Under the pieces are notes generated by a model that was given only the letters and a program-made list of their open reading frames with translations, had not been told where the DNA came from and made no database searches. Of a stretch of DNA of 51,602 bases, positions 5,783-28,354 are shown one piece after another. Position 1 is the stretch's first letter. Every line of letters starts with the position of its first letter. Source of the DNA: Candidatus Levybacteria bacterium CG2_30_37_29 (GTDB taxonomy: Bacteria > Patescibacteriota > Microgenomatia > Levybacterales > GWA1-39-11); the NCBI GenBank assembly GCA_001873215.1, contig MNYS01000006.1, positions 120,839 to 172,440 on the forward strand. The letters run 5' to 3'. Position numbers and translations under genes: made by a program.

Positions 5783-5998
5783 CCTCCGCCTTTGGCGGAG
5801 AACCCTGCCTCGCTTCGCGAGGTAGGAATTTTTCCGATTAATTTCGGAGTTCTTTCCCTGTTTCTTAGAAACAGGATTTTAAATTTAGCGGAGTTGTCCG
5901 CCTCTTCGGCGAATTTAACTTCGTTAAATTTTTTTGAGAATTTGATCCTGGTTCAGGATGAACGCTAGCGGCGTGCTTTAGGTATGCAAGTCGAACGG

Positions 5999-6312
5999 CT
6001 CACTCTTTTTGGTTAGTATTTGATACGATAGTTGTATGTACTACGTATATGTTTTAAAAAGCCAAAAATACAAAACTATTAAAATCTATATTGGATTTAC
6101 TTCAGATTTGAAAAGACGAGTTGAGCAGCATAATAGTTTAGAAACAAAATCAACAAGGTTTGGGATTCCCTGGAAGCTTGTTTATTATGAAGCGTTTTTA
6201 AACAAAATAGATGCTGTACAACGCGAATTACAATTAAAAACAGGAAGTGGTTCAATTGGCTTTTTAAAACGTAGAATTAAAAAGTCTTTGGATACTAGTT
6301 GAAAAGAGTGAG
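5999..6312 (+). mobile_element. ORF-bearing insertion in the V1 hairpin (helix 6) of 16S rRNA
   Basis: The V1 hairpin is closed by CTCACTCTTTT (5999-6009) and AAAAGAGTGAG (6302-6312), perfectly complementary, and is extended by TAGTAT (6014-6019) with ATACTA (6292-6297). The loop between holds a complete GIY-YIG gene whose stop codon overlaps the 3' arm. In ordinary 16S this loop is only a few nucleotides. Whether the insert is removed from the RNA, or the rRNA stays fragmented or extended, cannot be told from DNA alone. Confidence 0.8.
6036..6302 (+). CDS. GIY-YIG nuclease domain protein inside 16S V1 insertion
   Basis: An 88-residue single-domain GIY-YIG nuclease of the small UvrC-N-like (YhbQ-like) type. 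Visible motifs are YYVYVLKS (residues 2-9), IYIGFTSDLKRRVEQHN (17-33) holding the YIG half with the conserved Arg, and YYEAFLNKIDAVQRELQLK (50-68) holding the catalytic Glu region. GIY-YIG proteins cut DNA and are a classic homing-endonuclease class, so this one could have spread the insert into 16S genes. Free-standing relatives are common in Patescibacteria, so it may instead be a captured gene. It lies wholly inside the rRNA transcript, with no evident ribosome-binding site. Its stop codon (6300-6302) touches the closing stem of the V1 hairpin. Confidence 0.9.
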   Translation: MYYVYVLKSQKYKTIKIYIGFTSDLKRRVEQHNSLETKSTRFGIPWKLVYYEAFLNKIDAVQRELQLKTGSGSIGFLKRRIKKSLDTS

Positions 6313-7012
6313 CAGTGGCAGACGGGTGAGTAACGCGTAAGAATCTACCTTTCAGTGGGGCACAACAGTCCGAAAGGATTGCTAATTCCCCATAATATCT
6401 CCGGATTAAAGGACTTAACTGTCCGCTGAAAGAGGAGCTTGCGCCCTATCAGCTTGTTGGTGAGGTAAAGGCTCACCAAGGCTATGACGGGTAGCTGGAC
6501 TGAGAGGTCGGCCAGCCACAGGGGCACTGAGACACGGGCTCCACACCTACGGGTGGCAGCAACCAGGAATATTGGGCAATGGACGGAAGTCTGACCCAGC
6601 GACGCCGCGTGGAGGATGAAGGTTTTCGGATCGTAAACTCCTTTTGCCAAGCCTTTCACAGCTTGGAGAATAAGCATCTACTAACTACGTGCCAGAAGTC
6701 TCGGTAATACGTAGGATGCAAGCGTTATCCGGATTTATTGGGCGTAAAGAGTGTGTAGGCGGTTTTTTAAGTCGCGATTTAAAGCCTGTGGCTTAACCAC
6801 AGTGTTGGTCGCGATACTGAAAAACTAGAGGGATGTTTGGGGTACAGGAACAGTTGGTGTAGCGGTGAAATGCGTTGATATCAACTGGAACACCGAAGGC
6901 GAAGGCATGTACCTGTAACTCTCCTGACGCTGAGACACGAAAGCTAGGGTAGCGAAACAGATTAGAGACCTGTGTAGTCCTAGCCGTAAACTATGGATGC
7001 TAGATACCCCGG

Positions 7013-7150
7013 AACCAAGTGCATAAACTTGGAATTTTCAATTTTAAATTTTTAATTTACAATAAATGTTTCAATGTTTGAAAACTTCAAATTCACTGAA
7101 AATTGTAAATTGAGAATTGGAAATTTCCAAAAGCTGTGCTTTTGGTTTTG
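7013..7150 (+). repeat. AU-rich hairpin insertion in helix 26 of 16S rRNA
   Basis: After GATACCCCGG the rRNA departs from the normal short helix 26 loop and returns at GGGGTGTCGTAAGCTAACGCG. The insert holds CCAAGT...ACTTGG (7015-7032), a long imperfect stem between about 7029-7063 and 7102-7130, and CCAAAAGCTGTGCTTTTGG (7128-7146). There is no ORF. The AT-rich arms resemble low-complexity tracts found between genes here (for example 15166-15200). Confidence 0.7.
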
Positions 7151-7179
7151 GGGTGTCGTAAGCTAACGCGTTAAGCATC

Positions 7180-7239
<60 letters not shown>

Positions 7240-7363
7240 CCAGTGGAGCGTGTGGTTCAATTTGAGACGAAACAAAAAACCTCACCAAGGTTTGACATGC
7301 TATCGTTTTATACTTTATGAAAGTTTAGTAGATCTATAGAAATATAGATGATAGCACAGGTGT

Positions 7364-7398
<35 letters not shown>

Positions 7399-7695
7399 CC
7401 CTTAAGTGGGGAAACGAGTGCAACCCCTATCCTGTGTTACATATCACAGGAGACTGCCCCGACTTTGTCGGGGAGGAAGGCGGGGCGGACGTCAAGTCAG
7501 CATGACCCTTATACCTTGGGCTACACACACACTACAATGGCGAAAAACAATGGGTTGCAAGCTCGCAAGAGCAAGCTAATCCCTCAAATTTCGCCTCAGT
7601 TCAGATTGGGGTCTGAAACCCGACCCCATGAAGTCGGAATTGGTAGTAATCGCGGATCAGCGTGCCGCGGTGAATACGTTCTCGGGTCTTGTACA

Positions 7696-8550
7696 AATTA
7701 AATGCGCCTGGCAGTTTAATAAGTCTCGCTGATAGTTTTCAGTCGGGATCCCGCACGAATATGAAATTCGTCGGGGCAAGATGGTGGAAATCCATCTTAA
7801 TAGTTGAAGAACAGTCCCGATGGGTAACCAATCGGGATGAAGGGTTCGATGTATCGAAAAGCAGCCTAAAATAAAAAAAGCATTTCGACCTTTAAGTGTA
7901 CTAAGGGGAAGAAATATACAAAAAGCTTTTTAGGATGTTTGAAACTGTTTATTAAATGACCCAGGGAGATCCTATGTGCATCAGAACTATAATAGGCCAT
8001 AGGAAGTCAGCTGATTCCATAGTACCTTCAGATTATGTATAATTTTAATGTGGAGGGAAGGGATGAACTCTAAATTAAACCCTTATTATTTAGTAGGTTT
8101 AGTTGATGGCGAAGGTTGCTTTAGCGTAACCTTTAATAATCACAAAAGCAACCGCTTAATAGAAGTGAGATTGATTTTTGAGATTGAGCTAAGAGAGGAT
8201 GATAAAGAAATTTTAGAGAGAGTAAAAGAAACTTTTGAATGTGGGAATTTATACAATCTTCAATATGAGAGATACAAAAAATGGAGACCACATTATAAAT
8301 ACAAGGTTTCAAACTTGAGTGATATTACTAAAAAAGTAATATCTTTCTTTAAAAAATATCCTCTTCAGGCAAAGAAGAAAAAGAGTTTTGAGTTGTTTGC
8401 TCAAGTAGCAAAACTTATTACTCAGAAACGCCACTTAACCCGCGAAGGGGTAGAAGAAATTAGATTACTAAAAGAGGATTTAGCAAGAGACTCGCTGGAT
8501 GCGGGAAACCCGCACGTCCAGTGGGGAGCGGAATAGTTCTTAACCGCGAT
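7696..8550 (+). mobile_element. Intron with group II features and a LAGLIDADG ORF in the 16S decoding site
   Basis: The universal sequence TTGTACACACCGCCCG is split as TTGTACA (ending 7695) and CACCGCCCG (starting 8551), about E. coli 1396/1397. The insert has group II marks. A 31-nt domain V-like hairpin lies at 8493-8523: CGCTGGAT pairs with GTCCAGTG, a two-base AC bulge sits at 8514-8515, and the distal stem GCGGG/CCCGC caps it. A short domain VI-like GCGG/CCGC hairpin follows, and the 3' end is ...GAT, fitting the AY rule. The 5' consensus GUGCG appears as ATGCGCC starting at 7702, six nucleotides inside the intron rather than at its edge. Many hairpins fill 7705-7870. No reverse transcriptase is present. 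Confidence 0.7.
8063..8536 (+). CDS. LAGLIDADG homing endonuclease, intron-encoded
   Basis: A 157-residue single-motif LAGLIDADG protein. The motif is seen as YYLVGLVDGEGCFSV near the N-terminus, with the acidic catalytic position in VDGEG; the rest alternates strands and helices as in the family. The ATG at 8063 is preferred over 8048 because GGAGG (8052-8056) lies 6 nt before it. One-motif enzymes work as homodimers and cut intronless alleles, here presumably the 16S decoding site. The C-terminal codons (reading DSLDAGNPHVQWGAE) overlap the domain V-like hairpin, so protein and ribozyme share sequence. LAGLIDADG ORFs in group II introns, instead of reverse transcriptase, are known chiefly from rRNA genes. 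It may also assist splicing; that is inference. Confidence 0.93.
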   Translation: MNSKLNPYYLVGLVDGEGCFSVTFNNHKSNRLIEVRLIFEIELREDDKEILERVKETFECGNLYNLQYERYKKWRPHYKYKVSNLSDITKKVISFFKKYPLQAKKKKSFELFAQVAKLITQKRHLTREGVEEIRLLKEDLARDSLDAGNPHVQWGAE

Positions 8551-9855: not shown

Positions 9856-9883
9856 CCCCGATTCTATTGGGTTTTTTTGTGGC
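9856..9883 (+). terminator. Terminator-like hairpin; left copy of a 28-bp direct repeat
   Basis: CCCCGATTCTATTGGG followed by seven T and GTGGC forms a short CCC/GGG stem with a U-tract at the end of the preceding plus-strand gene. The same 28 bp occurs at 13442-13469 in the same orientation, on the other side of the large glycoside hydrolase gene. Confidence 0.6.
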
Positions 9884-9952: not shown

Positions 9953-12900
9953 TTAAAGATGAAAGCTTATATCCCTTAACTTATTAAAGTCAAAAATATC
10001 AATTATATTATCTTGTTTGCAATCTGAGTCTTTACTAGTTTTTGTTGTTCCCAAGAATTCATCTTTCCACCAATCAAAGTCAAGATTGTCGACTTTTCCT
10101 GACGATTCACCCTTGGCAGGGTCACAGGTGGGGATTAATGTTGGTGTTGCGACAGAAGGGGTAGCTGTAGGTGTTGCGATGGGACCGGTTGTGGGTGTAG
10201 CGGTAGGTACAGGAGTGTTTGTTGGGAATGAAGTCGGGGTAGGAGTTGGAGTGGCTGTGGGGTTTATAGATGAAAAATTGCGCCCAAAATACCAAACAGA
10301 TTTACCAGAAGTAAAAGGACTTCTTGTTATATGAACCGTTTCAAACCAATTTTTTCCAGGTGCAGGTTGTGTTGTTAGCCATGGTGTAAAGCGAATTTCA
10401 GCTATAATTTCATCTTGGTCACCAAGCGGGGCTTCAACGGATTGGTACTGTGCGACTTCGCTATCTCCCCAGAACGTTACTTTGTTATCAAGTGGATGTT
10501 CAAGACCAATAAATCTTCCTAAAGTTAGGTATCCATCAGGATTGGGTTTTGGATAGGTAAGAGCATCGTATGTCATATTGTTTATTTTAATATATCTGAC
10601 CAAGTCAACAAGTCCGTAATAATTTCCTAGAGCTAACGCCTCAACCGGACTGGAATCATCGTTAAGGACGACCTGAAATTTAACTTTTTGTTCGCCGTTG
10701 TTAATTGTCATCAATAGATAAAAATGTGCTCCGTTTGGAAAACGAGAAAATTGATATTTAGCAACGGTTTGCGTAGAAGTTTGAGAAACAATGCTTTGGA
10801 TTATGGTTGCTCCATCAATTTCGGCATTTCCCCATACTCCTCCAACTCGGGCAATTGGGACTATATTATTATATTGTTGCCAGCTTCCGCTTGAAGTCTT
10901 GTAGAAAAGATCAATGATTCCGGTAATAGATGGAGAAGGTATAATGCGGATATATTCATTTTCATAATATGGTGGAGGTGTGGGTGTAGGACTTGCGACA
11001 TTTACTCCAAAAAGCTTCTTTGCGAGATTAAAATTTTCTTCTCCATCCTCAGTTGTTGGAGCAAAGGCATATCCCTCTGTGAACCCGTTCCAAATATCAA
11101 GAGTAATTCCTGCAGTTTCATATTTTTTGGCAAGATTTTCGACCGAACTTCTCCATGCAGAATTATCTCCATAAACAGTGCCTGGTGGACGAACTAGATG
11201 ATCATCATAACCGGGTAGGACATTTGCCATTAAAGGAATGTTTGAAGATTTCCACCTTTCAAGGATTTCTTCCGCTTTAGTTAATCTTTCATTCTCGGTA
11301 TTACCGTCGGAAGTAATATTAAAAGGATTTATTGCAAGAAGCGATTGGGTATTTTGCAATGCATTTACATCGGGACCTTCATATGACCCGTTTGCGGGAA
11401 GCGGGGTAGGGTCGATAATAAAACCGATTTTCTGTCCTGTTTCAGACTCAATTTTGTTTGCTACTGTATCAAATGCTTGGGCAAATTCTTGTGTATTTAC
11501 AGAACCGGCATGGATTGTTTCGATTAGCCAAATTACTTTCCTCTCCTGTCCATTTTTATCATATATTTTTAACCAATTTAAGTATGTTCCGTAAGTTGAG
11601 AGCAGCGATTTAATTCTTGCTTCCAGTTTTGATGTATCTTGCGGAAAGTCTTTCCAGAACTCAAAACTTTGCATTGGATTGTCTGTATTTGTAACTACTT
11701 CAATGAGAGGTGCAACCATGAGTTGTCTTGCAGCAGCTTTTTCAAAGGTTTTTTTGTTAGCGTCGATTGTGCTTTGGGTCGGAGCATACTGCAAATTTTC
11801 ATTGTTTGGCCCCCACCATGAAAGTTTTATTGTATTTGCGCCTGCGTTTTTTATCTGGTCAAAAGTTTGGTTAAGATACGATTCTTCTGTCGTGTAAGGA
11901 GGATAATATTGGAGTAGAGGATGTCTGGTATAAAATTGTTTAACATTGTTATTTGGTAATCCGCCAAAAAAGAAAACGCCTTTAACTTTTTGCCCTGAAA
12001 ATTCTGTGTTTGCAATTCTCCCCCAGTTATTTGTCGGTGATGGAGTAGGAGCAGCCTCACATCTATTTGTTGCTGGATTACAAAAAGTACAATTATTTTG
12101 AGCTACATTGCAATCAGTCGGGCAACTCGCTAAAGTTTCGCCAGCATCACAAATTCCATTGCCGCAGTAAGATGCAAATAACAAGGTATTCATAACAGTT
12201 GAATATGATGCTTTAGGAGTTCCATCCTTTTTCATAATGCCAAACGTATTTTCACAATTGTATAGAGGATCAGCAAAAGCAGGGTTATCTCTATATTCAA
12301 AAATGAGCACTGAATCCGCGCCACCTTGCCTTGCTCGTTCAATGTATTGCGGTAGTAATCTTTTCTGATCTTCCTCAGTCCATGTAGAGCTTCCAGTGCA
12401 TAAACCTGTCTCAGTAACTATTACAGGTTTGCCATATGTGGCTTTTAGGTCTGCAGTATTCGCAGTTATAGCTTGTATTTCTGCTGAATCATTGTCAGGG
12501 TAAATATCAACAGAAATAACATCTAGATTAGAACCGATGGAATTAAAGTACAATTTCCAGCGGTCACGAAGAGCGGAATTGTAAGGCCAGCCTCCGCTAG
12601 TTGTTGTGATTTGAGCATTCGGATCTATGCTTCGAAGAGTAGTTCTTGCCTGGCCTAATACTGCATTTAGCTGGGAAAGATACGCATCACTTAGGGGAGA
12701 TTTGCTGACATCATTGCTGAATTTATCAAATGCATGCAAATCAGATTCGCCTAATACTAGCCAAAGTCTCAATTTAGCTGTAAATCGAATGCCAAGCTCG
12801 CGATAATATGCGTCAGTTATTGTAAGATATTGAGATTGCGTATATTTGGTTTCATGCGAGCCAGACGCGTCAGAATAAAGTTTTGCCCACTGCGGAACGT

Positions 12901-13393
12901 TAGTTACAAGTTCAACCTGGAATCCTTTGCCGCGAGCATAATCGATTGCCTGGCTATATTGATCAAGACGACTAGGATTGCAGTTTATTGGTGAAGCGAC
13001 TGAACAATCGATGGTTGCAGATGACGGGTCTGTTCTTGGGAAAGCCTCCCAGTCCCAGATGGGGAACCGTATTAGAATCGGTTTTAATCCGGCTGCAGCT
13101 TTTATGGCGTCGATATCCTGCTTAAAAACCTCATAAGTGAGAGGATTAGGATCATTGATAAAAGAAGTATCGAAATTAATGTGAGTGTTGAAACCAGCTG
13201 ATGCCAGTGGAGGCAAAGCACAATCCGCCTGCTTATTGCATAGTGCATTGCATGCATTAAATTCTTGTGCTGCTCTTTGCCTGATGTCTTGTGATTTTCG
13301 ATTAAGTAACAATGTAACCGGTATTGAGATGATAAGTAAGACAGTAAGCAGTGTGCCAATTACCTTCTTTTTGGATAATAAATTCATATACAA
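9953..13393 (-). CDS. Large secreted glycoside hydrolase with two barrel domains and dockerin-like C-terminus
   Basis: A 1146-residue exported protein. An N-terminal transmembrane helix (10-30) is followed by KSQDIRQRAA. Residues about 60-390 look like a clan-A TIM barrel: LVLGES (E216 as acid/base) and VIVTETG (E328 as nucleophile) sit where cellulase-like families have theirs. A Cys-rich CGNGICDAGE...CPTDC motif and CTFCNPATNRC follow. A second barrel-like domain (about 460-790, GVFFFGGLPNNN ... WLIETIHAG) and a beta-rich domain (about 810-1040) come next. A Thr/Pro linker then leads to a C-terminal module with DNLDFDWWKDEF and DCKQDNIIDIFDFNKLRD, which resembles duplicated dockerin calcium loops. 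It would act at the cell surface on a polysaccharide. Fold calls are from motifs; substrate is unknown. Confidence 0.85.
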   Translation of the reverse strand: MYMNLLSKKKVIGTLLTVLLIISIPVTLLLNRKSQDIRQRAAQEFNACNALCNKQADCALPPLASAGFNTHINFDTSFINDPNPLTYEVFKQDIDAIKAAAGLKPILIRFPIWDWEAFPRTDPSSATIDCSVASPINCNPSRLDQYSQAIDYARGKGFQVELVTNVPQWAKLYSDASGSHETKYTQSQYLTITDAYYRELGIRFTAKLRLWLVLGESDLHAFDKFSNDVSKSPLSDAYLSQLNAVLGQARTTLRSIDPNAQITTTSGGWPYNSALRDRWKLYFNSIGSNLDVISVDIYPDNDSAEIQAITANTADLKATYGKPVIVTETGLCTGSSTWTEEDQKRLLPQYIERARQGGADSVLIFEYRDNPAFADPLYNCENTFGIMKKDGTPKASYSTVMNTLLFASYCGNGICDAGETLASCPTDCNVAQNNCTFCNPATNRCEAAPTPSPTNNWGRIANTEFSGQKVKGVFFFGGLPNNNVKQFYTRHPLLQYYPPYTTEESYLNQTFDQIKNAGANTIKLSWWGPNNENLQYAPTQSTIDANKKTFEKAAARQLMVAPLIEVVTNTDNPMQSFEFWKDFPQDTSKLEARIKSLLSTYGTYLNWLKIYDKNGQERKVIWLIETIHAGSVNTQEFAQAFDTVANKIESETGQKIGFIIDPTPLPANGSYEGPDVNALQNTQSLLAINPFNITSDGNTENERLTKAEEILERWKSSNIPLMANVLPGYDDHLVRPPGTVYGDNSAWRSSVENLAKKYETAGITLDIWNGFTEGYAFAPTTEDGEENFNLAKKLFGVNVASPTPTPPPYYENEYIRIIPSPSITGIIDLFYKTSSGSWQQYNNIVPIARVGGVWGNAEIDGATIIQSIVSQTSTQTVAKYQFSRFPNGAHFYLLMTINNGEQKVKFQVVLNDDSSPVEALALGNYYGLVDLVRYIKINNMTYDALTYPKPNPDGYLTLGRFIGLEHPLDNKVTFWGDSEVAQYQSVEAPLGDQDEIIAEIRFTPWLTTQPAPGKNWFETVHITRSPFTSGKSVWYFGRNFSSINPTATPTPTPTSFPTNTPVPTATPTTGPIATPTATPSVATPTLIPTCDPAKGESSGKVDNLDFDWWKDEFLGTTKTSKDSDCKQDNIIDIFDFNKLRDISFHL

Positions 13394-13441
13394 AGATAAT
13401 TAATAATACCACTTTTAAACATATGCAGGCTTAGATCAAAA

Positions 13442-13469
13442 CCCCGATTCTATTGGGTTTTTTTGTGGC
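13442..13469. repeat. Right copy of the 28-bp terminator-like direct repeat
   Basis: Identical to 9856-9883 over 28 bp. Here AAACCC pairs with GGGTTT, giving a better stem. It lies upstream of the minus-strand hydrolase start and follows no evident plus-strand gene. As a pair of direct repeats flanking one large gene it may mark an inserted or duplicated segment. Confidence 0.6.
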
Positions 13470-13536
13470 TAAAAAATGTAGTTTAAAACTTTTAATCAGC
13501 CACGTTTTATGCTAAACTTCTATTCATGGCGCGGTG

Positions 13537-13582
13537 GCCTACCTGCCGGCAGGCAGGCGAAGTTCCGCCAAGGGCGGACAGG
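13537..13582. repeat. GC-rich dispersed repeat (CCTGCCGGCAGGCAGG type)
   Basis: CTACCTGCCGGCAGGCAGG and GTTCCGCCAAGGGCGGA form two adjacent hairpins of very high GC content. It lies inside the disrupted tRNA and probably caused the break. Confidence 0.55.
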
Positions 13583-13614
13583 GTTCATGCGAGAGTTGGG
13601 AATTTTCTAAACTT

Positions 13615-13686
13615 GGTGCGATGGCGAAGTGGTAACGCGGCGGTCTGCAAAACCGCTATGCACGGGTTCGAATCCCGTTCGCACCT
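13615..13686 (+). tRNA. tRNA-Cys (GCA)
   Basis: Acceptor GGTGCGA pairs with TCGCACC. The D-arm is GCGAAGTGGTAACGC. The anticodon stem GCGGT/ACCGC encloses CTGCAAA with anticodon GCA. The T-arm is ACGGG-TTCGAAT-CCCGT. Discriminator U73 is the cysteine identity base. CCA is not encoded. Confidence 0.93.
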
Positions 13687-13847
13687 CATTAAGAAAAGTG
13701 CGGGACAAAACTTTTACTCCGATAAAATCGGAGGTAGCTGAAAGCGTTAGCGAGGGTTCAATTCCCTTCCGCGCCTCAAAACTGTTACATATTTATGAGT
13801 CTTTTGTAAAGAAGAATTTCCTCTTCGTGCTATAATAAACCTCAGAT

Positions 13848-14021
13848 ATGCCAAACGCAGAAAGACAGCTCGGATATTTCAGAAAAGTTGAAGCAGATGT
13901 AGAAAAAGCAGGAGGACTTGTATTGGCAGTTTTTGGTATTTTTACACATGAGCTTCAGCCCGTTGCAATGGGATTGCTAATACATTTAATAGGTAAATGG
14001 CGGACTCCTAAAACTGCATGA
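13848..14021 (+). CDS. Small hypothetical protein (57 aa)
   Basis: A 57-residue ORF beginning MPNAERQLGYFRKVEADVEK and ending GKWRTPKTA, with one hydrophobic segment (about residues 22-47). TATAAT at 13831-13836 lies 11 nt before the ATG. Its TGA overlaps the ATG of the next gene (ATGA at 14018-14021), which suggests translational coupling. I recognise no family; the organisation rather than the sequence supports it as a gene. Confidence 0.6.
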   Translation: MPNAERQLGYFRKVEADVEKAGGLVLAVFGIFTHELQPVAMGLLIHLIGKWRTPKTA

Positions 14022-14389
14022 TGGAAGAAAATCAAAAAAATTCAGAGCAGCAAAATTCCGGTCAAGAAAATAGAAAAGCAGAATCCCGTCTTCAAGAAGA
14101 AATACAAGCCGGTGAATGGCAGCGTTTGAGTAACTTTGAAATCTACAGAACCCGAAGCCGTCAAGGGAAAATTATCGCAACGCATCAGGCGCTTGCAAAT
14201 AGAATAAAGCAACTCGAAACATTATTCTATCAGTTGGTAAAAAATCATCCGCAAAAATCAGTAAAACTACTCGCGGAAATAAAACGTTTGAGAATTTTGC
14301 TTGAATATCTTCTCCAAGCACTTATTTGGGAAGAAAAAGGAGAGCTTGAAGAACACCGGAGCCCTGAAGAATTGGAAGGGATGATTTAA
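14018..14389 (+). CDS. Hypothetical helical protein coupled to the 57-aa gene
   Basis: A 123-residue protein with a Gln/Asn/Glu-rich disordered N-terminus (1-30) and then two or three amphipathic helices (about 37-110) with basic segments such as FEIYRTRSRQGK. It ends in an acidic tail, EEHRSPEELEGMI. No signal peptide or membrane helix. The start overlaps the stop of the upstream 57-aa ORF by ATGA, so the two are probably made from one mRNA. No family is recognised. The pair lies between tRNA-Cys and tRNA-Ile. Confidence 0.65.
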   Translation: MMEENQKNSEQQNSGQENRKAESRLQEEIQAGEWQRLSNFEIYRTRSRQGKIIATHQALANRIKQLETLFYQLVKNHPQKSVKLLAEIKRLRILLEYLLQALIWEEKGELEEHRSPEELEGMI

Positions 14390-14437
14390 TCCTTATTATT
14401 GTTTTCAAGCTTACATCTCTGGTAAAATATAATGTCT

Positions 14438-14510
14438 GGGCATCTAGTTCATCGGTTAGAACGCTTTCCTGATAAGAAAGAGGTGCATGGTTCGATTCCA
14501 TGGATGCCCA
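14438..14510 (+). tRNA. tRNA-Ile (GAT)
   Basis: Acceptor GGGCATC pairs with GATGCCC, D-arm is GTTCATCGGTTAGAAC, and anticodon stem CTTTC/GAAAG encloses CTGATAA with anticodon GAT. The T-arm is CATGG-TTCGATT-CCATG, discriminator A. CCA is not encoded. It lies between a plus-strand gene and the convergent cohesin gene. Confidence 0.95.
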
Positions 14511-14569
14511 CAATTTTTTTCTAAACCCCGTTTAAACTTTTCTCAGAAACCTTTTGTTCGTTCAAGATG

Positions 14570-15160
14570 TTATTTCGCTGGCTGTTGGAGTGTAATTTCC
14601 AGAGGAGTTGTTTGTTTTAATACCGATTCTGAGACTCCAAATTTTGTAACCATTGTTTTATTAACAAAGCTGATAAACGTTTGGGCGGGAAGGAGAGCAG
14701 TTGTTGCTTTTTGAAATGTCACTGTTGCAATTTTTCCGGCACCCTTTATTCCTTTTTGATTGGAGTTGGTAAAAAAGAAATATGATACTCTTCCAAGCGT
14801 AGGGTCAACTTCAGACAAAAGAACTTTGCCAAGCCCAAAAAACGAGGCGTCAAGTGGGGCGGCAATCTTAACGTTTGTTATAACTTTTGGATCGTAAGTC
14901 AATTCTACTTGAATACCTGAAATCTCATCATTTGACGTATCGGCAAGGATATCTACGCTTACCGGAGTTGAGCCGGAAGCATCAATAAGCGCGGGCGCAA
15001 AAGACAGTGTTGTTGATTTTACAACGGCGGCGATTGTTGGTGCAATAGAAGGTTTCTGAACAACCGGTTTTATTGATTGATCTGATGTTATTGCAAGAAT
15101 TACCAAAACTGTTGTAGTAATTGCAAGAATAATTATAAGAAGTGTAGTTTTTTTGGGCAT
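14570..15160 (-). CDS. Membrane-anchored cohesin-domain protein
   Basis: A 196-residue protein with an N-terminal transmembrane anchor (residues 6-25), a short Pro-containing linker and one cohesin-like beta-sandwich (about 48-192). Cohesin marks are TLSFAPA at the first strand, ISGIQVELTYDPKVITNVKI in the middle and GKIATVTFQ near the end; the dockerin-free C-terminus ends LEITLQQPAK. Cohesins bind dockerin modules through calcium-dependent pairing, so it could tether the dockerin-like proteins encoded downstream. It is the first gene in the minus-strand direction after tRNA-Ile and is separated from the cohesin/dockerin gene by about 50 nt. Domain fold is inferred from sequence pattern. Confidence 0.75.
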   Translation of the reverse strand: MPKKTTLLIIILAITTTVLVILAITSDQSIKPVVQKPSIAPTIAAVVKSTTLSFAPALIDASGSTPVSVDILADTSNDEISGIQVELTYDPKVITNVKIAAPLDASFFGLGKVLLSEVDPTLGRVSYFFFTNSNQKGIKGAGKIATVTFQKATTALLPAQTFISFVNKTMVTKFGVSESVLKQTTPLEITLQQPAK

Positions 15161-15165
15161 ATACT

Positions 15166-15200
15166 ATCAATTATCAATTATCAATTTTAAATTTTCAAGT
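15166..15200. repeat. AT-rich low-complexity tract (TCAATTATCAATTTTAAATTTTCAA type)
   Basis: ATCAATT is repeated three times in tandem and followed by TTAAATTTTCAA in the short gap between two minus-strand genes. The same flavour of sequence appears in other gaps and in the helix 26 insert of the 16S rRNA. Confidence 0.5.
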
Positions 15201-15212
15201 ACTCAATTTAGT

Positions 15213-16496
15213 TTAGTCGCCTTTTCTTCTCGAAAATCCTGTATAGAGAATACTCAAGTCAATTGAATCAACAAGCCCATCGTCATTAATATCAGCTCTT
15301 GATTTTATGGCAGCTGTACAGTTGTCGCGGGAATTTGTACAATCAAGCATCGCGTTGTAGTCTGCCAAATTAAGCTCGTTATCGTGGGCAGAATCAATAT
15401 CTCCCGTTATAAGTTCTACTGTTGAGGTTGGTGTATAAACGGCCTTAGCAAGATTTACGATTACAGGAAGTACTTTTCGCAAAGAATTTGTAGTTCGAAT
15501 TTTTACAAGATAAGGCTTTGCTGGTATTGGACCAAGATTTACCGACGCTTCGTATTTGCCGTTAATGTAAAACGCGACTGTTTCTTTGGCTAAAATTGCG
15601 TCTCCGTCAATTACCTCAATTTCAGTATTCCGTCCAAAAGCTTGCGGATTATTATTTTGTCCCCCACTTGTATTTGTACCAATTCCGGGAAGTGTGTATT
15701 CAATCTTAATTCCGACATCATTCTGGCCAAGCACTGGAGTTGGAGTAGGAGTTTTTGGCGTCGTCGGTGTGACGCTGGGACCTGATGTTGGTGTTGGAGT
15801 CGCGGTCGGTGTTGGAGTTAGTGTTGGTGTTGGTGTTGGGCAATTGCCGTTGAAGTCTCCAGGTGTACATGTTGGTGTTGGATTACCAGTTACCGTAGGT
15901 GTTAGGGTTGGTGTTGGGGTGGTGTTTGTGTCAACGACAGTAATATTTGCAACGCCGGGGAGACCCGTGACCGGTATATTTCCTGAAATTCCTGAAGCTG
16001 CAATTTTCACAGCCACTTGATGGCTAAAGGCGATAGCCATACTTCCTGTATCCAGAGCCTTAAATTTAAAAATTACGACATTAACATTTTCACCGGAGAT
16101 AGGGGTGGAAGTTTGATTGATAAGAATTATTCTTTGCAATCTGGTAGTACTTTGTTGAGAATTTGCTCCATCAATTAATGTATAACTTTCGTGGGCCTTT
16201 GTGCCAATAAGTTCAAACTTTGTTGAATTATATTCCAGTACACCATCTATTGCAGAAATATCATTTCCTTTAGTATCCATGGTAAGCGTAAGTTCAAAAT
16301 CTTCCCCCTTATTTACTGTTTTTGAACTTGGTGAAAAAGATAAAGTTACCGGAGCTCCGGTTGATGCTCTTTGGCGGATATCTTGTTGTTTTAGAACTTG
16401 GGAAACAATAATGGGAATTGATAATACTAAAATTCCCAAAGCCGCGAGAGTAATTGGCCTTTTATGTGTTTTGTAAAATTCAATTATTTTTTCCAT
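15213..16496 (-). CDS. Secreted cohesin plus dockerin protein with Thr-Pro linker
   Basis: A 427-residue exported protein. The N-terminal helix (15-32) is followed by KQQDIRQRAS. A cohesin-like domain (about 44-185) starts VTLSFSPSSKTVNKGEDFELTL and contains ISAIDGVLEYNSTKFELIG. A linker of T-P repeats (about 190-260) follows, then a small beta domain (about 262-350). The C-terminus is a clear type I dockerin: first calcium loop GDIDSAHDNELNLADYNAML, second ADINDDGLVDSIDLSILYTG. Having both modules, it could act as an adaptor between cohesin-bearing and dockerin-bearing partners. It is flanked on the minus strand by the cohesin-only and dockerin-only genes with very small gaps, so an operon is likely. 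Confidence 0.85.
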   Translation of the reverse strand: MEKIIEFYKTHKRPITLAALGILVLSIPIIVSQVLKQQDIRQRASTGAPVTLSFSPSSKTVNKGEDFELTLTMDTKGNDISAIDGVLEYNSTKFELIGTKAHESYTLIDGANSQQSTTRLQRIILINQTSTPISGENVNVVIFKFKALDTGSMAIAFSHQVAVKIAASGISGNIPVTGLPGVANITVVDTNTTPTPTLTPTVTGNPTPTCTPGDFNGNCPTPTPTLTPTPTATPTPTSGPSVTPTTPKTPTPTPVLGQNDVGIKIEYTLPGIGTNTSGGQNNNPQAFGRNTEIEVIDGDAILAKETVAFYINGKYEASVNLGPIPAKPYLVKIRTTNSLRKVLPVIVNLAKAVYTPTSTVELITGDIDSAHDNELNLADYNAMLDCTNSRDNCTAAIKSRADINDDGLVDSIDLSILYTGFSRRKGD

Positions 16497-16498
16497 AC

Positions 16499-17650
16499 TT
16501 AATACAAAAGCCCCGGCCAGCGCAAATCCCTCATTTTATTAAAGTCAAAAATATCAATTATATTATCTTGTTTGCAGTCTGAAAGTTTGTTGGTATATGT
16601 GGAAACACCTAGTAATTCATTTTTCCACCATGCAAAGTCAAGATCATTAATTATATGATTCGAGGCATCACTTTTATCAGGATCACAGGTAGAAGGTAGT
16701 GGTGCAGTTGTTGGTGTTGGTGTTGTGGTGGACACCCTCATCCTGTAAAGATATCCATTATTAGGCCATGCCGTCCAGGGAATAGTTGCATCAACTAAGT
16801 TGTAAGTTGTTGTGCCGGAAGGCGGAGGTGAGGTTGTTATAATATATCCAAAACCGTCATCCTGTGTTTCTGTAGGTCCGGGCTGATAAGAGCTTTTCAT
16901 GCAAAGACCAACATTAGTACCCATAGGCGCGCTGGCGCATAGGAGGTCATTAGTTTCGATAAAGACTAAGTCTGATGTCATGTTCGATGGTCTATACCAA
17001 CTTTTCCAAGTTCCCGCTGGGAAATTTCCCCTTGAAAGTGCTGAAACGCCAGAGGCAAGTGTTGTTGCAAAGTTGGATACAGGGATGGTCTGGCCGCTGT
17101 ATGCAAAACAATATTTACCGTTATTTGTGGCGGTTACAACTACGGGCACGCTTCCAGTGGTACAGTTTAAGGGGGCTAAAGTGGGGGTTGGGGTTATTGT
17201 AGGGGTGGGTGTGGTGGTAGGCGTTGAAGTAGGGGGAGGGGGGTTTGCGCATATATGCGAATCATTACAGTACATACTTGAACAATTGCTGTTGGCATCG
17301 CATTGACATCCAATCGCCCGCCCCCACTGACTAGTGATGCAGTAGTTGGGTGGTGGATCATAAACAACTCCGGGATTGCAAAACTGACAAGTAGATGTGG
17401 CGATGTTGCATTCTCCTCCCATTGGAGACCAGGATCCCGTTCCTCCCTGTACCGTGGTACATGTTTCTCCTAAGCTACCGGGGCGGCATGATACGAAAAC
17501 CTCACCAACAGCGGAATTGTACTTGATTTGTCTTTCGTCTGGATTCGGGCACGTAGCTGCATAAACCTTAGAAGAATAGATATTGCTAAAGATAAATAAA
17601 GTAAAAATAAATGAACTTAACAATAACAACCTCAATAATTTATTTCCCAT
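16499..17650 (-). CDS. Secreted Cys-rich protein with Thr-Pro linkers and dockerin-like C-terminus
   Basis: From the preferred ATG at 17650 the protein is 383 residues and begins with a Sec signal peptide ending SSKVYAATCP (A-x-A cleavage site). An upstream in-frame ATG at 17701 would bury the signal peptide and is not preferred. A Cys-rich region (CQFCNPG..., CQCDANSNCSSMYC) precedes a T-P linker, a beta-rich domain of about 130 residues and a second linker. The C-terminal module has DLDFAWWKNELLG and DCKQDNIIDIFDFNKMRDL, nearly the same as the end of the large hydrolase. This shared dockerin-like end suggests both bind the same partner. The stop lies 2 nt from the start codon of the next minus-strand gene (ATG at 16496), so the genes are almost contiguous. 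Confidence 0.8.
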   Translation of the reverse strand: MGNKLLRLLLLSSFIFTLFIFSNIYSSKVYAATCPNPDERQIKYNSAVGEVFVSCRPGSLGETCTTVQGGTGSWSPMGGECNIATSTCQFCNPGVVYDPPPNYCITSQWGRAIGCQCDANSNCSSMYCNDSHICANPPPPTSTPTTTPTPTITPTPTLAPLNCTTGSVPVVVTATNNGKYCFAYSGQTIPVSNFATTLASGVSALSRGNFPAGTWKSWYRPSNMTSDLVFIETNDLLCASAPMGTNVGLCMKSSYQPGPTETQDDGFGYIITTSPPPSGTTTYNLVDATIPWTAWPNNGYLYRMRVSTTTPTPTTAPLPSTCDPDKSDASNHIINDLDFAWWKNELLGVSTYTNKLSDCKQDNIIDIFDFNKMRDLRWPGLLY

Positions 17651-17773
17651 AATAAATACAGCAATTATTCTAATAATAGAAGTATTTAATGTGGTTGTCA
17701 ATCCTTATTTCAAGCAATTTAATAACAAGATTTTTTTCCGGTCTGGTAGTTATGTCTTCAATTCTGCAGTTCT

Positions 17774-17824: not shown

Positions 17825-18487
17825 TTAATCGATAATTAGTTCTTTGGGTAAGATTTTTAAATTATCTTTAAGATCCATAAAATCTTTATAAAGAGGTATT
17901 CTTCTCAAGCGCTTATCGCTTAAAAGTTCAAGAACGAAACTTGGTTTTACCCATACTGCTTTTTTACTACCAATATAATATTGATAGCTGGAATACGGAT
18001 ATTCTACAGGGTCCGACCCTGCAAACAGATGTTGCGGATTTAAGTGAATATATTTAGAAAGATAAAGAAGATAATTGTCGTCTAGCACTAGCGATGCTTT
18101 GTAATTTCCCTGAAATAAAGAACCTACCCTTTCGTATTTTTTGTTAAAGTACATAGTATATGAAGTTGAAGCCGCCCTCATAAACTCCGTAATTGAGTTT
18201 TTATTTTTTTGGTGAACGAGAAGATGAAAATGATTTGGCATAAGACAAAAAGCCAAAAGATCAACTTCTTCATGAAATGTTTTTTTTATTCTAAAATTGA
18301 AATCAACACCGTTTTTTGCCAAAGGGTGGGGTAAGTTAAATAAGGGGGAAAGATAGAATTTTAAAAGACCGAGGAATACAATGTAATCTTGTGTATCGAC
18401 ATAAATAATTCTTTTTTCTACACCTCTGTTGTAAATATGATAATAGCCATTTTCAATATATGTTTTTATTCGATTTTTTGCCGGCAT
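17825..18487 (-). CDS. REP-associated tyrosine transposase (RAYT, Y1/IS200-like)
   Basis: Y1-type single-strand DNA nuclease of the RAYT group. Starting at the ATG at 18487 it is 220 residues; the open frame continues upstream to 18568, but that part only reads through the palindromes and is not preferred. Motifs: YYHIYNRGVEKRII near the N-terminus, the metal-binding H-x-H as MPNHFHLL, a helix with FMRAASTSYTMYFNKKY holding the likely catalytic Tyr, and GSLFQGNYKASLV with YIHLNPQ. RAYTs nick and move REP hairpins. Here palindromes flank both ends, and one copy lies inside the coding sequence (18007-18021, encoding AGSDPV), so the gene is tightly tied to its repeat. Confidence 0.93.
   Translation of the reverse strand: MPAKNRIKTYIENGYYHIYNRGVEKRIIYVDTQDYIVFLGLLKFYLSPLFNLPHPLAKNGVDFNFRIKKTFHEEVDLLAFCLMPNHFHLLVHQKNKNSITEFMRAASTSYTMYFNKKYERVGSLFQGNYKASLVLDDNYLLYLSKYIHLNPQHLFAGSDPVEYPYSSYQYYIGSKKAVWVKPSFVLELLSDKRLRRIPLYKDFMDLKDNLKILPKELIID
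18007..18021. repeat. REP-like palindrome, family 1, inside the RAYT coding region
   Basis: CAGGGTCCGACCCTG is the reverse complement of the 17774 core. It lies in frame in the transposase gene and encodes part of FAGSDPVEY. Confidence 0.75.
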
Positions 18488-18526
18488 ACCTAGAAAGAGT
18501 GTAGTACTTCTTTTTTCTCTTGTCAA

Positions 18527-18558
18527 CAGGGTCCGACCCTGGCAGGGTCGGACCCTGC
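18527..18558. repeat. Inverted pair of family 1 REP-like palindromes
   Basis: CAGGGTCCGACCCTG (18527-18541) is followed at once by GCAGGGTCGGACCCTGC (18542-18558). The two are in opposite orientation, the arrangement of a bacterial BIME, directly upstream of the RAYT start. Confidence 0.8.
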
Positions 18559-18605
18559 AAGCAAGCATTTACAAATGTGAAAGTTTTGGGTATCATCTTT
18601 GTTGC

Positions 18606-24542: not shown

Positions 24543-24752
24543 TTAAATTATTGGAGTTGGTGTAGGAGTGGGCGTTGCGCCTCCGGGTAAAAGAATAGGT
24601 ACAGGAGTGATAGTTGGTGTTGCATCAGAGCCTACCCGTTTTAGTTCTGTAATTTTAAAAAGAGATTTGCCGGAAACAAAAAAAACGGCAAAAACAAGGA
24701 CAACAAGAAGTAAATAAATTTCCGTATCTCCGCGGGTACTATTTTTTTTCAT
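24543..24752 (-). CDS. Small Thr-Pro-rich membrane-anchored protein
   Basis: A 69-residue protein: basic N-terminus MKKNSTRGDTEIY, one transmembrane helix (about 12-28) and a short extracellular tail that ends in T-P repeats. The start RGDTEIYLLLV resembles the N-termini of four other genes in this block (24759, 26217, 26613 and 30734). It ends the minus-strand surface block and starts 6 nt from the stop of the 475-aa gene, so it is probably cotranscribed with it. Confidence 0.65.
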   Translation of the reverse strand: MKKNSTRGDTEIYLLLVVLVFAVFFVSGKSLFKITELKRVGSDATPTITPVPILLPGGATPTPTPTPII

Positions 24753-24758
24753 AATCTT

Positions 24759-26186
24759 TTACATGAAGCAGGAGAAAGGATGATTTTTGTCTTTTTTAAA
24801 TATTCCTCCCCATTCAACGACCGTGAATCCACTTCTTTTAATTGGCGTAATTACCGGCTGGGTAATATCAATTTTATTTTCCAGCGCTTCAAAATAAAGA
24901 GTAACGCGGATAACAGTATTTGGGGTGGGGGAGATAGAAAGTGGAGCAATTGAATTTAGGTTTGATTGTGAGACAATACCTATAAAATAATAAGGAGAAT
25001 CGGGCAAAGCTTTTATCCAGTAATTTTTAAATTCATCAGCTTCTTTTTTATTCAATGAAAGCTTGGGAAGAATTTCCGTCAAAAAGCTGGCAAGATCATT
25101 TTTTGCAACAACAAATCCTTTATCCGGTTTTTCTATATTACTATCAGGAATTTCCGCCTCGTAGTAAAGATAGTCATAACTCTTGTTTTGGTATGAAAGA
25201 ATTCCATTTGGCTGGGCTTGTACGTCCCAGCCGCTTTGTGGATATTGTGGGTCCGTATACAACATTTTTCCAACCGGCGCAACTTTTACATTTACATTTG
25301 TTGTGGTTGTGGGATACAGGTAGATTGCGGGCTTGCAAAGAGGCGAAAGCCATGGAATCGAAATGCCCTCCTGTTCTACTGTAAAAGTCCGTAATTGGAG
25401 GTTCGTTTTCCCGGGATAATCCGTAGGTAGTATTATTTTCTGGCCCGACCCTTTTGCAGGAGTATCGGGCCCAAAATTTTTATCGCAGTTTTTAATAAAA
25501 TCCGGCATTCCGGAAGAATCATATTCTGATATTTTATAATAAGCATCATAAACTGTTTTATCTGTTCCATAGCAAGATATATCAGCCGCAGGATTGGGCC
25601 ACGTGCATGCAGCGGCAGTACAATTTTGCTTGCAGATAAAAATAAGGTTGTCGTTTGGAATTGCGTCGCAGTATTTTTGTATATCAGCATTTGTATAGTT
25701 TCGTTTCATAAACATATATGGATCAGGCGGATTTTTTTTAAAGTACAAATCTTTTGGATGACCGATAGGATCTGGTCTGTTACAAAAGCTTTTTACAGCA
25801 GGATTATCAACGGCATGTGTATCTGAAGAGTTAAGGATAATTGGTTTTCCGTCAGGTGTTGTTATTCCGCTGTCTTTTAAGTGAAGATTCCCTTCGGTAA
25901 GAACACTGTTTGTTCTAAGAAGTCCGTATCTTTCTCCATTGAACGTTATTACCTGGTTTTTGCTCTCGTCTCTTTGTGGTTGGCAGGCGTCTCCGTCTCC
26001 GGTATCACAGCATGTTGTTGAAGTGCTAAATCCAATCGGAGAATTTCCACGATTTTGACCGAAAAGTCCGCCTCCAATAATAAATCCGAAAATAACCGCG
26101 AAAATCAGGATAATAATTTCAACCCCGCCTCTCGTGGTTAAGCGCTTCTTTTGAATTTTCTTTCTTTTTTTTATTTTTGGCATCAC
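24759..26186 (-). CDS. Membrane-anchored extracellular protein with KPAIYLYP motif
   Basis: A 475-residue protein with a very basic N-terminus (KIKKRKKIQKKR), the block-typical TTRGGVEIIILIF and one transmembrane helix (about 22-45). The ectodomain has several Cys (CCDTGDGDAC, CNRPD, CKQNCTAAAC) and a C-terminal domain from about 285 starting LCKPAIYLYPTTTTNVNVKV. That K-P-A-I-Y-L-Y-P motif marks a family of uncharacterised bacterial surface proteins that I recognise by pattern but cannot name. The C-terminus (VEWGGIFKK) is beta-rich. It sits inside the surface-protein operon; a structural or substrate-binding role is inferred only. Confidence 0.75.
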   Translation of the reverse strand: MMPKIKKRKKIQKKRLTTRGGVEIIILIFAVIFGFIIGGGLFGQNRGNSPIGFSTSTTCCDTGDGDACQPQRDESKNQVITFNGERYGLLRTNSVLTEGNLHLKDSGITTPDGKPIILNSSDTHAVDNPAVKSFCNRPDPIGHPKDLYFKKNPPDPYMFMKRNYTNADIQKYCDAIPNDNLIFICKQNCTAAACTWPNPAADISCYGTDKTVYDAYYKISEYDSSGMPDFIKNCDKNFGPDTPAKGSGQKIILPTDYPGKTNLQLRTFTVEQEGISIPWLSPLCKPAIYLYPTTTTNVNVKVAPVGKMLYTDPQYPQSGWDVQAQPNGILSYQNKSYDYLYYEAEIPDSNIEKPDKGFVVAKNDLASFLTEILPKLSLNKKEADEFKNYWIKALPDSPYYFIGIVSQSNLNSIAPLSISPTPNTVIRVTLYFEALENKIDITQPVITPIKRSGFTVVEWGGIFKKDKNHPFSCFM

Positions 26187-26216
26187 TAATTATAGTATGG
26201 CTAACTAATCGTTGTG

Positions 26217-26603
26217 TCAACTGCCATAATCAGGTGTTGGTGTGGGTGGAGGAGGGGTAGGAGTATGGGTTGGTCCACTTCCAGGCGGAGGAGTCGGAGT
26301 TGGAGTCGGTGTAGGGCCGGGAGGATTTGTGGGGGTAGGTGTTGTCGGCGGCAAAGTAGGTGGGATAGGAGTCGGAGTGGGGGAAATAAATTTCAGGGTT
26401 CCGATTTGGAGATTTTTTTTAGGACCAATAATCCCTGAGTCAACAGGAATACCGGCCGGTTCAGTTGAATTAGGGGTAATTTTTCGGGTATAAACGCCGC
26501 CGACTAAAAATATGCTTCCTACAACAACTGCCGCAACAATTAAATAAATAATCCCCTGACCTTGTGTTTTTAAAAAAAATTGTTGCCTCTTCTTTCTTAG
26601 CAT
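26217..26603 (-). CDS. Short membrane-anchored protein with long Thr-Pro tail
   Basis: A 128-residue protein: basic start, transmembrane helix (about 16-37, GIIYLIVAAVVVGSIFLVGG) and then a tail that is almost wholly T-P and P-P repeats from about residue 74. Such a tail is likely extended and a possible glycosylation target. The head GQGIIYLIVAAVV resembles other members of the block. It lies between the KPAIYLYP protein and the vWA protein with gaps of about 10-30 nt, which points to an operon. Confidence 0.7.
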   Translation of the reverse strand: MLRKKRQQFFLKTQGQGIIYLIVAAVVVGSIFLVGGVYTRKITPNSTEPAGIPVDSGIIGPKKNLQIGTLKFISPTPTPIPPTLPPTTPTPTNPPGPTPTPTPTPPPGSGPTHTPTPPPPTPTPDYGS

Positions 26604-26612
26604 GAGAAATTA

Positions 26613-27584
26613 TCAGGTGCAAATTTTCTGGGAAATACTTTTGAAAATAGCTTTAAAATCGGTAGCGTCGTTTGCTAAGAAATAGTCGGTAGCGGGATCT
26701 GTGGTAATAGTTTTCATCATATTTTCGATTTTGCTTCTGAAATGTTCATCTGCAGCACTAATAATAACTATTGAGAATATTCTGACATTTTTACCGCCAC
26801 CGCTTACTAAGCTTTTTATTTCCGCTGATATATTGCTACCGGCTGTTGGGTCTTCATTTGGATCAAAACACCTGCATTTTCCGGTGGTCGGACTTGCGGT
26901 GCATGACGGTCCTCCTATGCTCCCCGGACAAATTTTGTTATTTTCTCCTGTTTCCGGTATTCCGTCAGTAAAGAAAATAAGATTGAAATTGTAGGTATTA
27001 AATTTAGTATTTGCCACAGCTGCCCTAAGGTCATCAAGCTCAGCGCTAAAAGCTGTTCTTGTCATCGTACCGAAATTGGCTGAAAGTGAATTTACTGTTT
27101 GGTTATATGCGCTTCTATTTTTTGAATAAAAATCAATTGGGACAAGACGGGACGTAGGAGGCAATCCAGAATCATTCGTGCTGCTGAAACGCCTTATGCC
27201 TACAGCTGTTTTGTCGTTAAAATTGGCGGCAAAATTTTGCATAGCTTGTTTTAGATTTGCAAGCTTTACTCCTCCATCAAAAGCCATGGATCCGGATGTG
27301 TCTATAAGAAAATCGATTGCCGCTTGATCGCTGCATTTTTTAAATTTGAATGTTTCAATTTTAAGGGATTTGCCATTTTGATTTGTCGGGACAGAGGTTA
27401 AGTCTACTTCCCCGACATCATCCATATTTACTTTTGAGTCGTCAAGTTCCGGAAAAATGCCCCCTGCCAAAATAATCGCGCCGAGAACAACGACACCCAA
27501 GATAAGCGTAATTGCGATATCCCCACGCCTCAAAAAACTAAAAAAAGATTTTTTCCTTTGACGTACAACCCGTTTTTTCCTCAT
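26613..27584 (-). CDS. Membrane-anchored von Willebrand factor A domain protein
   Basis: A 323-residue protein with a basic N-terminus, the block-typical RRGDIAITLIL, one transmembrane helix (about 23-45) and an external vWA domain (about 86-320). The metal-ion-dependent adhesion site is seen as DFLIDTSGSMAF (D95, S97, S99), with NFNDKTAVGIRRFSS and LIFFTDGIPETG as the later MIDAS loops. A Cys-rich insert (CPGSIGGPSCTASPTTGKCRC) follows. vWA domains with an intact MIDAS bind protein ligands, so adhesion to a host or partner cell is a fair inference. It lies in the middle of the surface operon. Confidence 0.88.
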   Translation of the reverse strand: MRKKRVVRQRKKSFFSFLRRGDIAITLILGVVVLGAIILAGGIFPELDDSKVNMDDVGEVDLTSVPTNQNGKSLKIETFKFKKCSDQAAIDFLIDTSGSMAFDGGVKLANLKQAMQNFAANFNDKTAVGIRRFSSTNDSGLPPTSRLVPIDFYSKNRSAYNQTVNSLSANFGTMTRTAFSAELDDLRAAVANTKFNTYNFNLIFFTDGIPETGENNKICPGSIGGPSCTASPTTGKCRCFDPNEDPTAGSNISAEIKSLVSGGGKNVRIFSIVIISAADEHFRSKIENMMKTITTDPATDYFLANDATDFKAIFKSISQKICT

Positions 27585-27638
27585 ATACTCTAAGTGTAAT
27601 ACATATTTTTTTCGCGTGTCAAGGAAAAAAATAGCTTA

Positions 27639-27653: not shown

Positions 27654-27700
27654 CTATTCCAAATGTAAATTATGAGTCAATGCACGGTTTCGTATTATGT

Positions 27701-28351
27701 TTATCGTGGAATAGAGGTGCTGTCTTGGAGAAAGGTGATTTCAAGGTCTGTTTTCTCAAATTTTACTTGTTTACCCAAATTAATAAGGGCGGTTAATGAA
27801 GTTATCTGGATTCCAAACTTTTCTTTATTTGATAAATTTACAACATCATATTTTATTGTCGCCAATTTCCCTTTTCCTGTTTTTGGCGTATCAGTATTAG
27901 TATTATTTAAGGCAAGAGTGATGAAAGCTTTTCCTTTTTCCTGATTTACGATTGTCTGGTCAACCCTGAATTCTGAAAATGGAGAAGTTAGATCATCTGT
28001 TTTATTTACGCTTACATTTGAAATCATACTTGGGTCAAATGACAATTCCATTTGTACTATCGCAACACCTTTTCCTTGTGTGTCAAGAACAATATCAGAC
28101 GAGATCCCATTCTGTTTTTTCTGAAGTAGCTTTATTGACGGAGGAGAGAAGTAGAGAAATGCAGGGTTTTTTCTAATCACAGTTTCCGAAGTTTTATTTG
28201 GTTTCGTAAAATCATTTTTATCCGTTTTTAATTGTGAAAGCACAACAACAATTACGGTTAGCAAAACCAAAATTCCCACACAAACAAGAGCAATAATTAT
28301 ATTTTTTTTACTCAAAATCTGTTTTTCTTCTATTTCTATATCATTTTCCAT
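27701..28351 (-). CDS. Membrane-anchored cohesin-domain protein
   Basis: A 216-residue protein with an acidic cytoplasmic start, one transmembrane helix (about 18-40) and a cohesin-like domain (about 70-210). Marks: LYFSPPSIKLLQKKQNGISSDIVL, then VAIVQMELSFDPSMISNVSV, VDQTIVNQEKGKAFITLAL and GKLATIKYDVV. The architecture matches the cohesin protein at 14570, so it is a second potential docking site for the dockerin-like proteins. It starts 4 nt from the stop of the DUF192 protein upstream and is probably in the same transcript. Confidence 0.75.
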   Translation of the reverse strand: MENDIEIEEKQILSKKNIIIALVCVGILVLLTVIVVVLSQLKTDKNDFTKPNKTSETVIRKNPAFLYFSPPSIKLLQKKQNGISSDIVLDTQGKGVAIVQMELSFDPSMISNVSVNKTDDLTSPFSEFRVDQTIVNQEKGKAFITLALNNTNTDTPKTGKGKLATIKYDVVNLSNKEKFGIQITSLTALINLGKQVKFEKTDLEITFLQDSTSIPR

Positions 28352-28354
28352 AAT

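Follow-up and report, generated by a model that had tools for sequence, protein, structure and literature searches.

Little is known of how ultra-small CPR bacteria hold enzymes and adhesins at the cell surface, and the locus described here raises the question of whether one of them does so by cohesin-dockerin docking and, if so, whether the resulting assembly is a cellulosome. The window, i.e., the whole stretch of 51,602 nucleotides that was analysed, lies on contig 2 of a 1.0 Mb genome (99.6% complete), which belongs to a Levybacteria-type bacterium within the Microgenomates (CPR). An earlier note on this DNA had proposed that several of its genes build a cellulosome-like complex for binding or cutting polysaccharides of partner cells or of the environment. 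Cohesin and dockerin domains expressed in groundwater have been described in Microgenomates (Shapirobacterales/Roizmanbacterium), where the passages concerned read them as cellulosomes (PMC9123182). In a cultivated Saccharibacterium, the list of essential envelope proteins includes one with a dockerin domain, for which the authors suggest host-glycan targeting (PMC10633639).

Organization of the locus

The four cohesin and dockerin genes and the second anchored cohesin were all found where the earlier note had placed them (Table 1). Its description of the minus-strand genes as adjacent holds for a run of three but not for the glycoside hydrolase (GH) gene, which is separated from the run by tRNA-Cys, a plus-strand ORF and tRNA-Ile. 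Within the run, the adaptor gene begins 2 bases after the stop of the 16499-17650 gene, and the anchored cohesin gene follows after another 52 bases. A promoter-like element upstream of the run is a consensus match alone (11/12), and promoter-like sites in the region as a whole were no more numerous than in shuffled sequences. Because a longer TTG frame would start within this element, 17650 is the likely start of the first gene. An identical terminator-like hairpin, CCCGATTCTATTGGG, followed by T7 flanks the GH gene at 9857-9871 (+) and 13443-13457 (+).

Table 1. Features of the cohesin and dockerin genes in the window
Feature	Position	Strand	Remarks
Secreted multidomain (GH-like) protein	9953..13387	-	Partial GH53 match and simple dockerin tail
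Simple dockerin tail of GH-like protein	9956..10129	-	Profile with relatives
SQDIRQRAA motif	13268..13294	-	After N-terminal transmembrane (TM) segment of GH-like protein
Membrane-anchored class I cohesin	14570..15160	-	Single N-terminal TM segment MPKKTTLLIIILAITTTVLVILA; no QQDxRQRA motif
Cohesin domain of anchored protein	14591..15016	-	Predicted fold
Adaptor	15213..16496	-	Class III cohesin, Pro/Thr linker, Ig-like X-module and dockerin; C-terminus ..SRRKGD
Adaptor X-module and dockerin	15216..15725	-	PDB match to CipA X-dockerin
Adaptor cohesin domain	15933..16358	-	PF00963 match; predicted fold
QQDIRQRA motif, putative processing site	16365..16388	-	After N-terminal TM segment of adaptor
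Secreted protein	16499..17650	-	383 aa from ATG 17650; AxA-type signal peptide (..SSKVYA/AT); C-terminal simple dockerin tail
Simple (type I-like) dockerin tail of secreted protein	16502..16690	-	60 residues; profile with relatives
Three-gene run	17650-14570	-	Tail-dockerin protein, cohesin-X-dockerin adaptor, anchored cohesin
Promoter-like TTGACA-17-TATTAT	17673..17701	-	Upstream of three-gene run
Second membrane-anchored class I cohesin	27701..28351	-	Class I group, long branch in tree

Cohesin domains

The cohesin and X-dockerin domains are real, and the simple tails resemble type I dockerins when aligned with relatives. In single-protein scans with PF00963 (cut-off 24.1), which the earlier note had named as a check, the adaptor scored 27.4 bits, whereas the anchored cohesins at 27701-28351 (24.0 bits) and 14570-15160 (21.1 bits) both stayed just short. 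The predicted structure of the 14570-15160 protein (pLDDT 83) matched only cohesins or cohesin-containing chains among the 50 PDB matches listed by Foldseek. For the adaptor, overall pLDDT was 62, with values of about 75-90 over the greater part of the cohesin and about 45-75 in the X-dockerin half, and the Foldseek matches of its cohesin fold ranked 1-30 were all cohesins. The two predicted cohesin folds gave TM-scores (by target) of about 0.6-0.8 against solved cohesins at a sequence identity of 10-18% to characterised ones, and the cohesin assignments are also backed by profile matches. The identities that the earlier note had given to the adaptor and to both anchored cohesins are thus upheld by the PF00963 scores, by the predicted folds of the adaptor and the 14570-15160 protein and by the X-dockerin profile described below.

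No X-dockerin gene adjoins that of the second anchored cohesin, which lies in a surface-type gene cluster (24543-31204, minus strand) whose products resemble one another in their N-terminal TM segments (RGxxEIxLLL..) and have Pro/Thr linkers; the cluster includes a VWA protein (26613-27584) and a protein of DUF192 plus linker (28355-30607) with a QQQDTRQQA motif and no dockerin. A fourth cohesin is encoded elsewhere in the genome (C3:484-720); its neighbour is an elongation factor 4-like gene, recognised by eye from the encoded protein. At least five genomes of the family encode, close to a gene resembling that of elongation factor 4 (lepA), a cohesin with an N-terminal TM segment, a QQxxRSRA-type motif and a C-terminal TM segment (L031 244-1482, L040 4562-5650, L042 4150-5349, L043 459-1313 and L044 5082-6284).

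X-dockerins and simple dockerin tails

The last 170 residues of the adaptor, searched as a single sequence, matched the CipA X-dockerin (2b59_B, E=7e-5) over residues 55-167, which covers both the X-module and the dockerin. A profile with 12 relatives reached E=1.7e-11 against the PDB; its five best matches were all X-dockerins, the best being those of CipA and of an A. cellulolyticus scaffoldin. In the alignment of these proteins (A1) both dockerin loops are conserved and the X-module stands directly before the two-loop dockerin. The C-terminus of the adaptor is, judged by its sequence, a CipA-like type II X-dockerin. The aligned X-dockerins finish at the very C-terminus of their proteins in an RxGD-like tetrapeptide (RKGD, RRGD, RNGD or RFGD).

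As reported in the earlier note, 9953-13393 (-) and 16499-17650 (-) both terminate in the string DCKQDNIIDIFDFNK. In both tails the calcium ligands of the first loop are lost and only the second loop is intact; in the tail at 16502-16690 this second loop reads DCKQDNIIDIFD beside a degenerate first loop. The PF00404 search proposed in the earlier note gave a sub-threshold 14.6 bits in the adaptor and no match in the two tails. Their relatives retain both calcium loops, and several of them score above the PF00404 cut-off. Taken alone, the two tails had a type I dockerin as best PDB match, weakly (E=0.1); aligned with the relatives that keep both loops (profile A6), they matched the type I dockerins 5nrm/5nrk at E=6e-10.

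The GH-like protein shows a partial GH53/GH catalytic-core match at residues 242-352 (PF07745, 25.4 bits against a cut-off of 24), has additional unassigned regions and gave no match in a sequence search of the PDB, and the body of the 16499-17650 protein gave no match in a Pfam search. The tail at the syntenic position in G006, a genome of another genus, is 58% identical, while the protein bodies do not match each other. The simple dockerin tails hence behave as tags, i.e., a conserved tail on exchangeable cargo.

Occurrence and gene order across the order

We searched 82 genomes of the order, with genes taken from ORFs, small profiles and many of the genomes being fragmented drafts; X-dockerin matches were present in 62 and anchored-type cohesins in 69. 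The earlier note had called such a system unexpected in a small genome; the X-dockerin genes are indeed there, but the claim needs qualifying because X-dockerins match in 62 of the 82 genomes. Of the 75 anchored-cohesin genes listed, 51 have an X-dockerin gene that ends 3-249 bp upstream, and strand and gene order agree in every one of these pairs (51/51). About 0.2 such pairs would be expected by chance, assuming random gene placement and 1000 genes per genome, and 45 of the 51 lie outside the family that was used for profile building. A class-wide sample spoke against strong X-dockerins being common to all Microgenomates: outside the order the best match reached 60.7 bits, mostly in the dockerin part, against best scores of 100-220 bits inside it.

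The trio of tail-dockerin protein, adaptor and anchored cohesin, in this order, occurs in four genomes of two families, namely in the window, in the same family but another genus (G006:C37) and in another family (G033:C41 and G074:C11). G074 was absent from all profiles and surfaced only in the order-wide search. Strong class III cohesin matches (at least 80 bits) were obtained in 10 genomes, all of which are among the 11 with strong simple dockerins (at least 45 bits). This association is partly circular, since simple dockerins served as the starting points for retrieving the loci that then supplied the profiles. Although absent from the cohesin profile, G040 had been known beforehand, which leaves G074 as the one clean new case; in G069, simple dockerins are accompanied by weak class III-like cohesins only. 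A strict rule that adaptors occur only with simple dockerins was ruled out, as cohesin-X-dockerin adaptors were also found in loci of G035, G056, G017, G073 and G058 that have none; adaptors are therefore not dedicated to simple dockerins.

For the cohesin tree, matches below 120 residues were removed beforehand because the first cohesin model also caught the shared N-terminal TM motif alone. The anchored proteins formed one group (18 rows, support 99/96), and the C-terminally anchored cohesins with some adaptors a second one (15 rows, 100/97), whose members come almost entirely from loci that lack simple dockerins. The weakly supported remainder holds the adaptor cohesin of the window and the cohesins beside simple dockerins, and comes from simple-dockerin genomes only. 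These tree groups, the G074 locus and the repeated gene order together suggest that the simple tail pairs with the adaptor cohesin and the X-dockerin with the anchored cohesin.

N-terminal motif and putative release from the membrane

A QQ(D/E)xRxxA motif follows the TM segment in 51 of 77 dockerin proteins, adaptors included, and in 5/6 cohesins with an additional anchor at the C-terminus. It was found in one of 23 anchored cohesins and in none of 198 ORFs that lack a TM segment. Where complete dockerin proteins do not have the motif, they mostly show AxA-like cleavage sites or motif variants, as read by eye. The simplest reading of this distribution suggests that the motif marks putative cleavage and release. 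Proteins released in this manner would need an anchor, which the uncleaved cohesin would supply.

Proposed docking mechanism and alternative interpretations

The genes of the window probably specify a two-step cohesin-dockerin docking system of the cell surface, in which cargo sits on the adaptor and the adaptor on the anchored cohesin. The two cargo proteins (9953-13387 and 16499-17650) and the adaptor would leave the membrane because their N-terminal signals are cleaved off. The simple tail of the cargo would then bind the adaptor cohesin, and the X-module-dockerin of the adaptor would bind the uncleaved class I cohesin 14570-15160 and perhaps 27701-28351 too. Two tandem X-dockerin proteins encoded elsewhere in the genome (C3:122351-122866 and C3:124477-124983), a CAP protein and an M64-type peptidase, would plug directly into the anchored cohesin. 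The probable outcome of these pairings and of signal cleavage is surface display of mixed enzymes or adhesins.

Identified same-family cargo, from the rest of this genome and from relatives, consists mostly of M64 and S8 peptidases, CAP proteins, VWA proteins with SdrD_B, PAN and beta-helix proteins; the wider order adds M4 peptidase, CBM4_9, CBM96/DUF5060 and GH79-type (GH79C) proteins. Such a mix speaks for general surface display rather than for a machine directed at cellulose. A scan of the genome for cohesins gave four single-cohesin proteins and no multi-cohesin scaffoldin, and Pfam searches gave no CBM match in the cohesin proteins of the window and no SLH domain, the anchor being an N-terminal TM helix. 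Although its anchoring recalls that of cellulosomes, the system itself does not qualify as one. Hence, of the surface complex envisaged in the earlier note, a cohesin/dockerin docking system with probable two-step assembly is well supported, whereas its cellulosome-like, polysaccharide-directed function is doubtful. A true miniature cellulosome, with the adaptor gathering glycoside hydrolases against plant or algal polymers, would agree with the GH53-like match of the 9953-13387 protein, with the CBM4_9, CBM96/DUF5060 and GH79C proteins among the cargo of relatives and with passages on cellulosomes in Microgenomates (PMC9123182). We consider it improbable, given that the only GH-like gene of the window system has a partial match barely above cut-off, that CBM and multi-cohesin scaffoldin are missing from the system and that most identified cargo of the family is of the protease, CAP, VWA, PAN and beta-helix kinds.

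The wiring itself could differ, with tails and X-dockerins both binding anchored cohesins and the adaptor cohesin binding something else, be it other X-dockerin proteins, dockerins of host cells or its own chain type, which would give polymers. Cohesin-type specificity is not readable from sequence, B. cellulosolvens has reversed cohesin roles (PMC5590126), and adaptors occur without simple dockerins in the genomes named above; yet the cohesins beside simple dockerins group apart from the anchored ones, albeit with weak tree support, and the trio order is common to four genomes, so that we regard other wiring as unlikely. Somewhat less plausible still is that the N-terminal TM segments are retained and that the contacts tie proteins which are anchored already into a lattice on the surface, or link one cell to the next. 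The TM segment is long and often lies 10-30 residues in, and QQDxRQRA is not a textbook signal peptidase site, but motif-less dockerin proteins such as 16499-17650 often have ordinary AxA-type signal peptides, the anchored cohesins are without the motif, and the C-terminal TM anchor of the motif-bearing cohesins would be needless if the N-terminal one stayed. That the cohesin-like and dockerin-like folds are stalk or calcium-stabilised domains with no mutual binding is very improbable; it would fit the low identity to characterised cohesins and the degenerate state of some dockerin loops in the window, but the order-wide linkage of the partner genes and the tag-like tails are hard to explain otherwise. 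As to the role of the two-step docking system, it is possible, and we offer it tentatively, that it acts as an order-wide plug-board that holds exchangeable proteases, adhesins and glycosidases on the surface of Levybacteria and perhaps other Microgenomates, for attachment to or feeding on partner cells and not for cellulose degradation.

Relation to known cohesin-dockerin systems

A close parallel is the X-dockerin II of C. thermocellum CipA with the type II cohesin of SdbA (2b59, 3kcp), where an X-module likewise stands directly before the dockerin, with similarity over both, and a scaffold is docked onto an anchored cohesin, as proposed here for Levybacteria. CipA/SdbA employs a large scaffoldin with anchoring of the SLH type (for the anchors of known cellulosomes see PMC5590126), whereas Levybacteria would use an adaptor with one cohesin and, as anchor, a small cohesin held by a TM segment. 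The suggested tail/adaptor and X-dockerin/anchor pairings would follow the logic by which type I and type II pairs work in clostridial cellulosomes. The solved structures closest to the simple tails are those of the Acetivibrio cellulolyticus Cel5 type I dockerin with ScaB cohesin 6 (5nrm, 5nrk), and they are also among the matches of the adaptor cohesin fold; unlike the Cel5 dockerin, the window tails are without the first-loop calcium ligands, and their type of cargo is not cellulosomal. Cohesin folds outside cellulosomes are known from Archaeoglobus fulgidus (2xdh) and Clostridium perfringens GH84C (2jh2), as in Levybacteria, where in contrast to these the cohesins are organised as anchor, adaptor and cargo with conserved gene order.

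The passages of PMC9123182 deal with the domains alone and assume cellulose degradation; the Levybacteria locus adds architecture, synteny, a proposed pairing and an anchoring logic. The open-access literature (subscription journals were outside its scope) gave no account of the adaptor and the anchored cohesin that partners it, nor of the gene order across the order or of the mix of cargo; within this literature the two-step architecture, the order-wide synteny and the cargo mix appear to be new, the domains in Microgenomates being already known. An anchor-adaptor-cargo logic with named partner genes provides directly testable protein pairs, and these small putative cohesin-dockerin pairs are available for comparison with cellulosomes. 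Dockerin genes are also suggested as a handle for finding surface cargo of uncultured CPR bacteria.

Other elements in the window

Two IS200-like (Y1_Tnp type) transposase genes were recognised, one at 17825-18568 (-) by PF01797 and one at 31328-31972 (+) by eye. In the region 5930-8550 (+), the 16S rRNA match spans 1814 bases against a model of 1533 positions, i.e., about 280 bases extra. Downstream of the 16S, at 7988-8550, there are two group II intron matches, RF01998 above and RF00029 below cut-off; between them and outside the modelled 16S, ORF 8048-8536 encodes a LAGLIDADG_1 homing endonuclease (PF00961, 1.8e-22).
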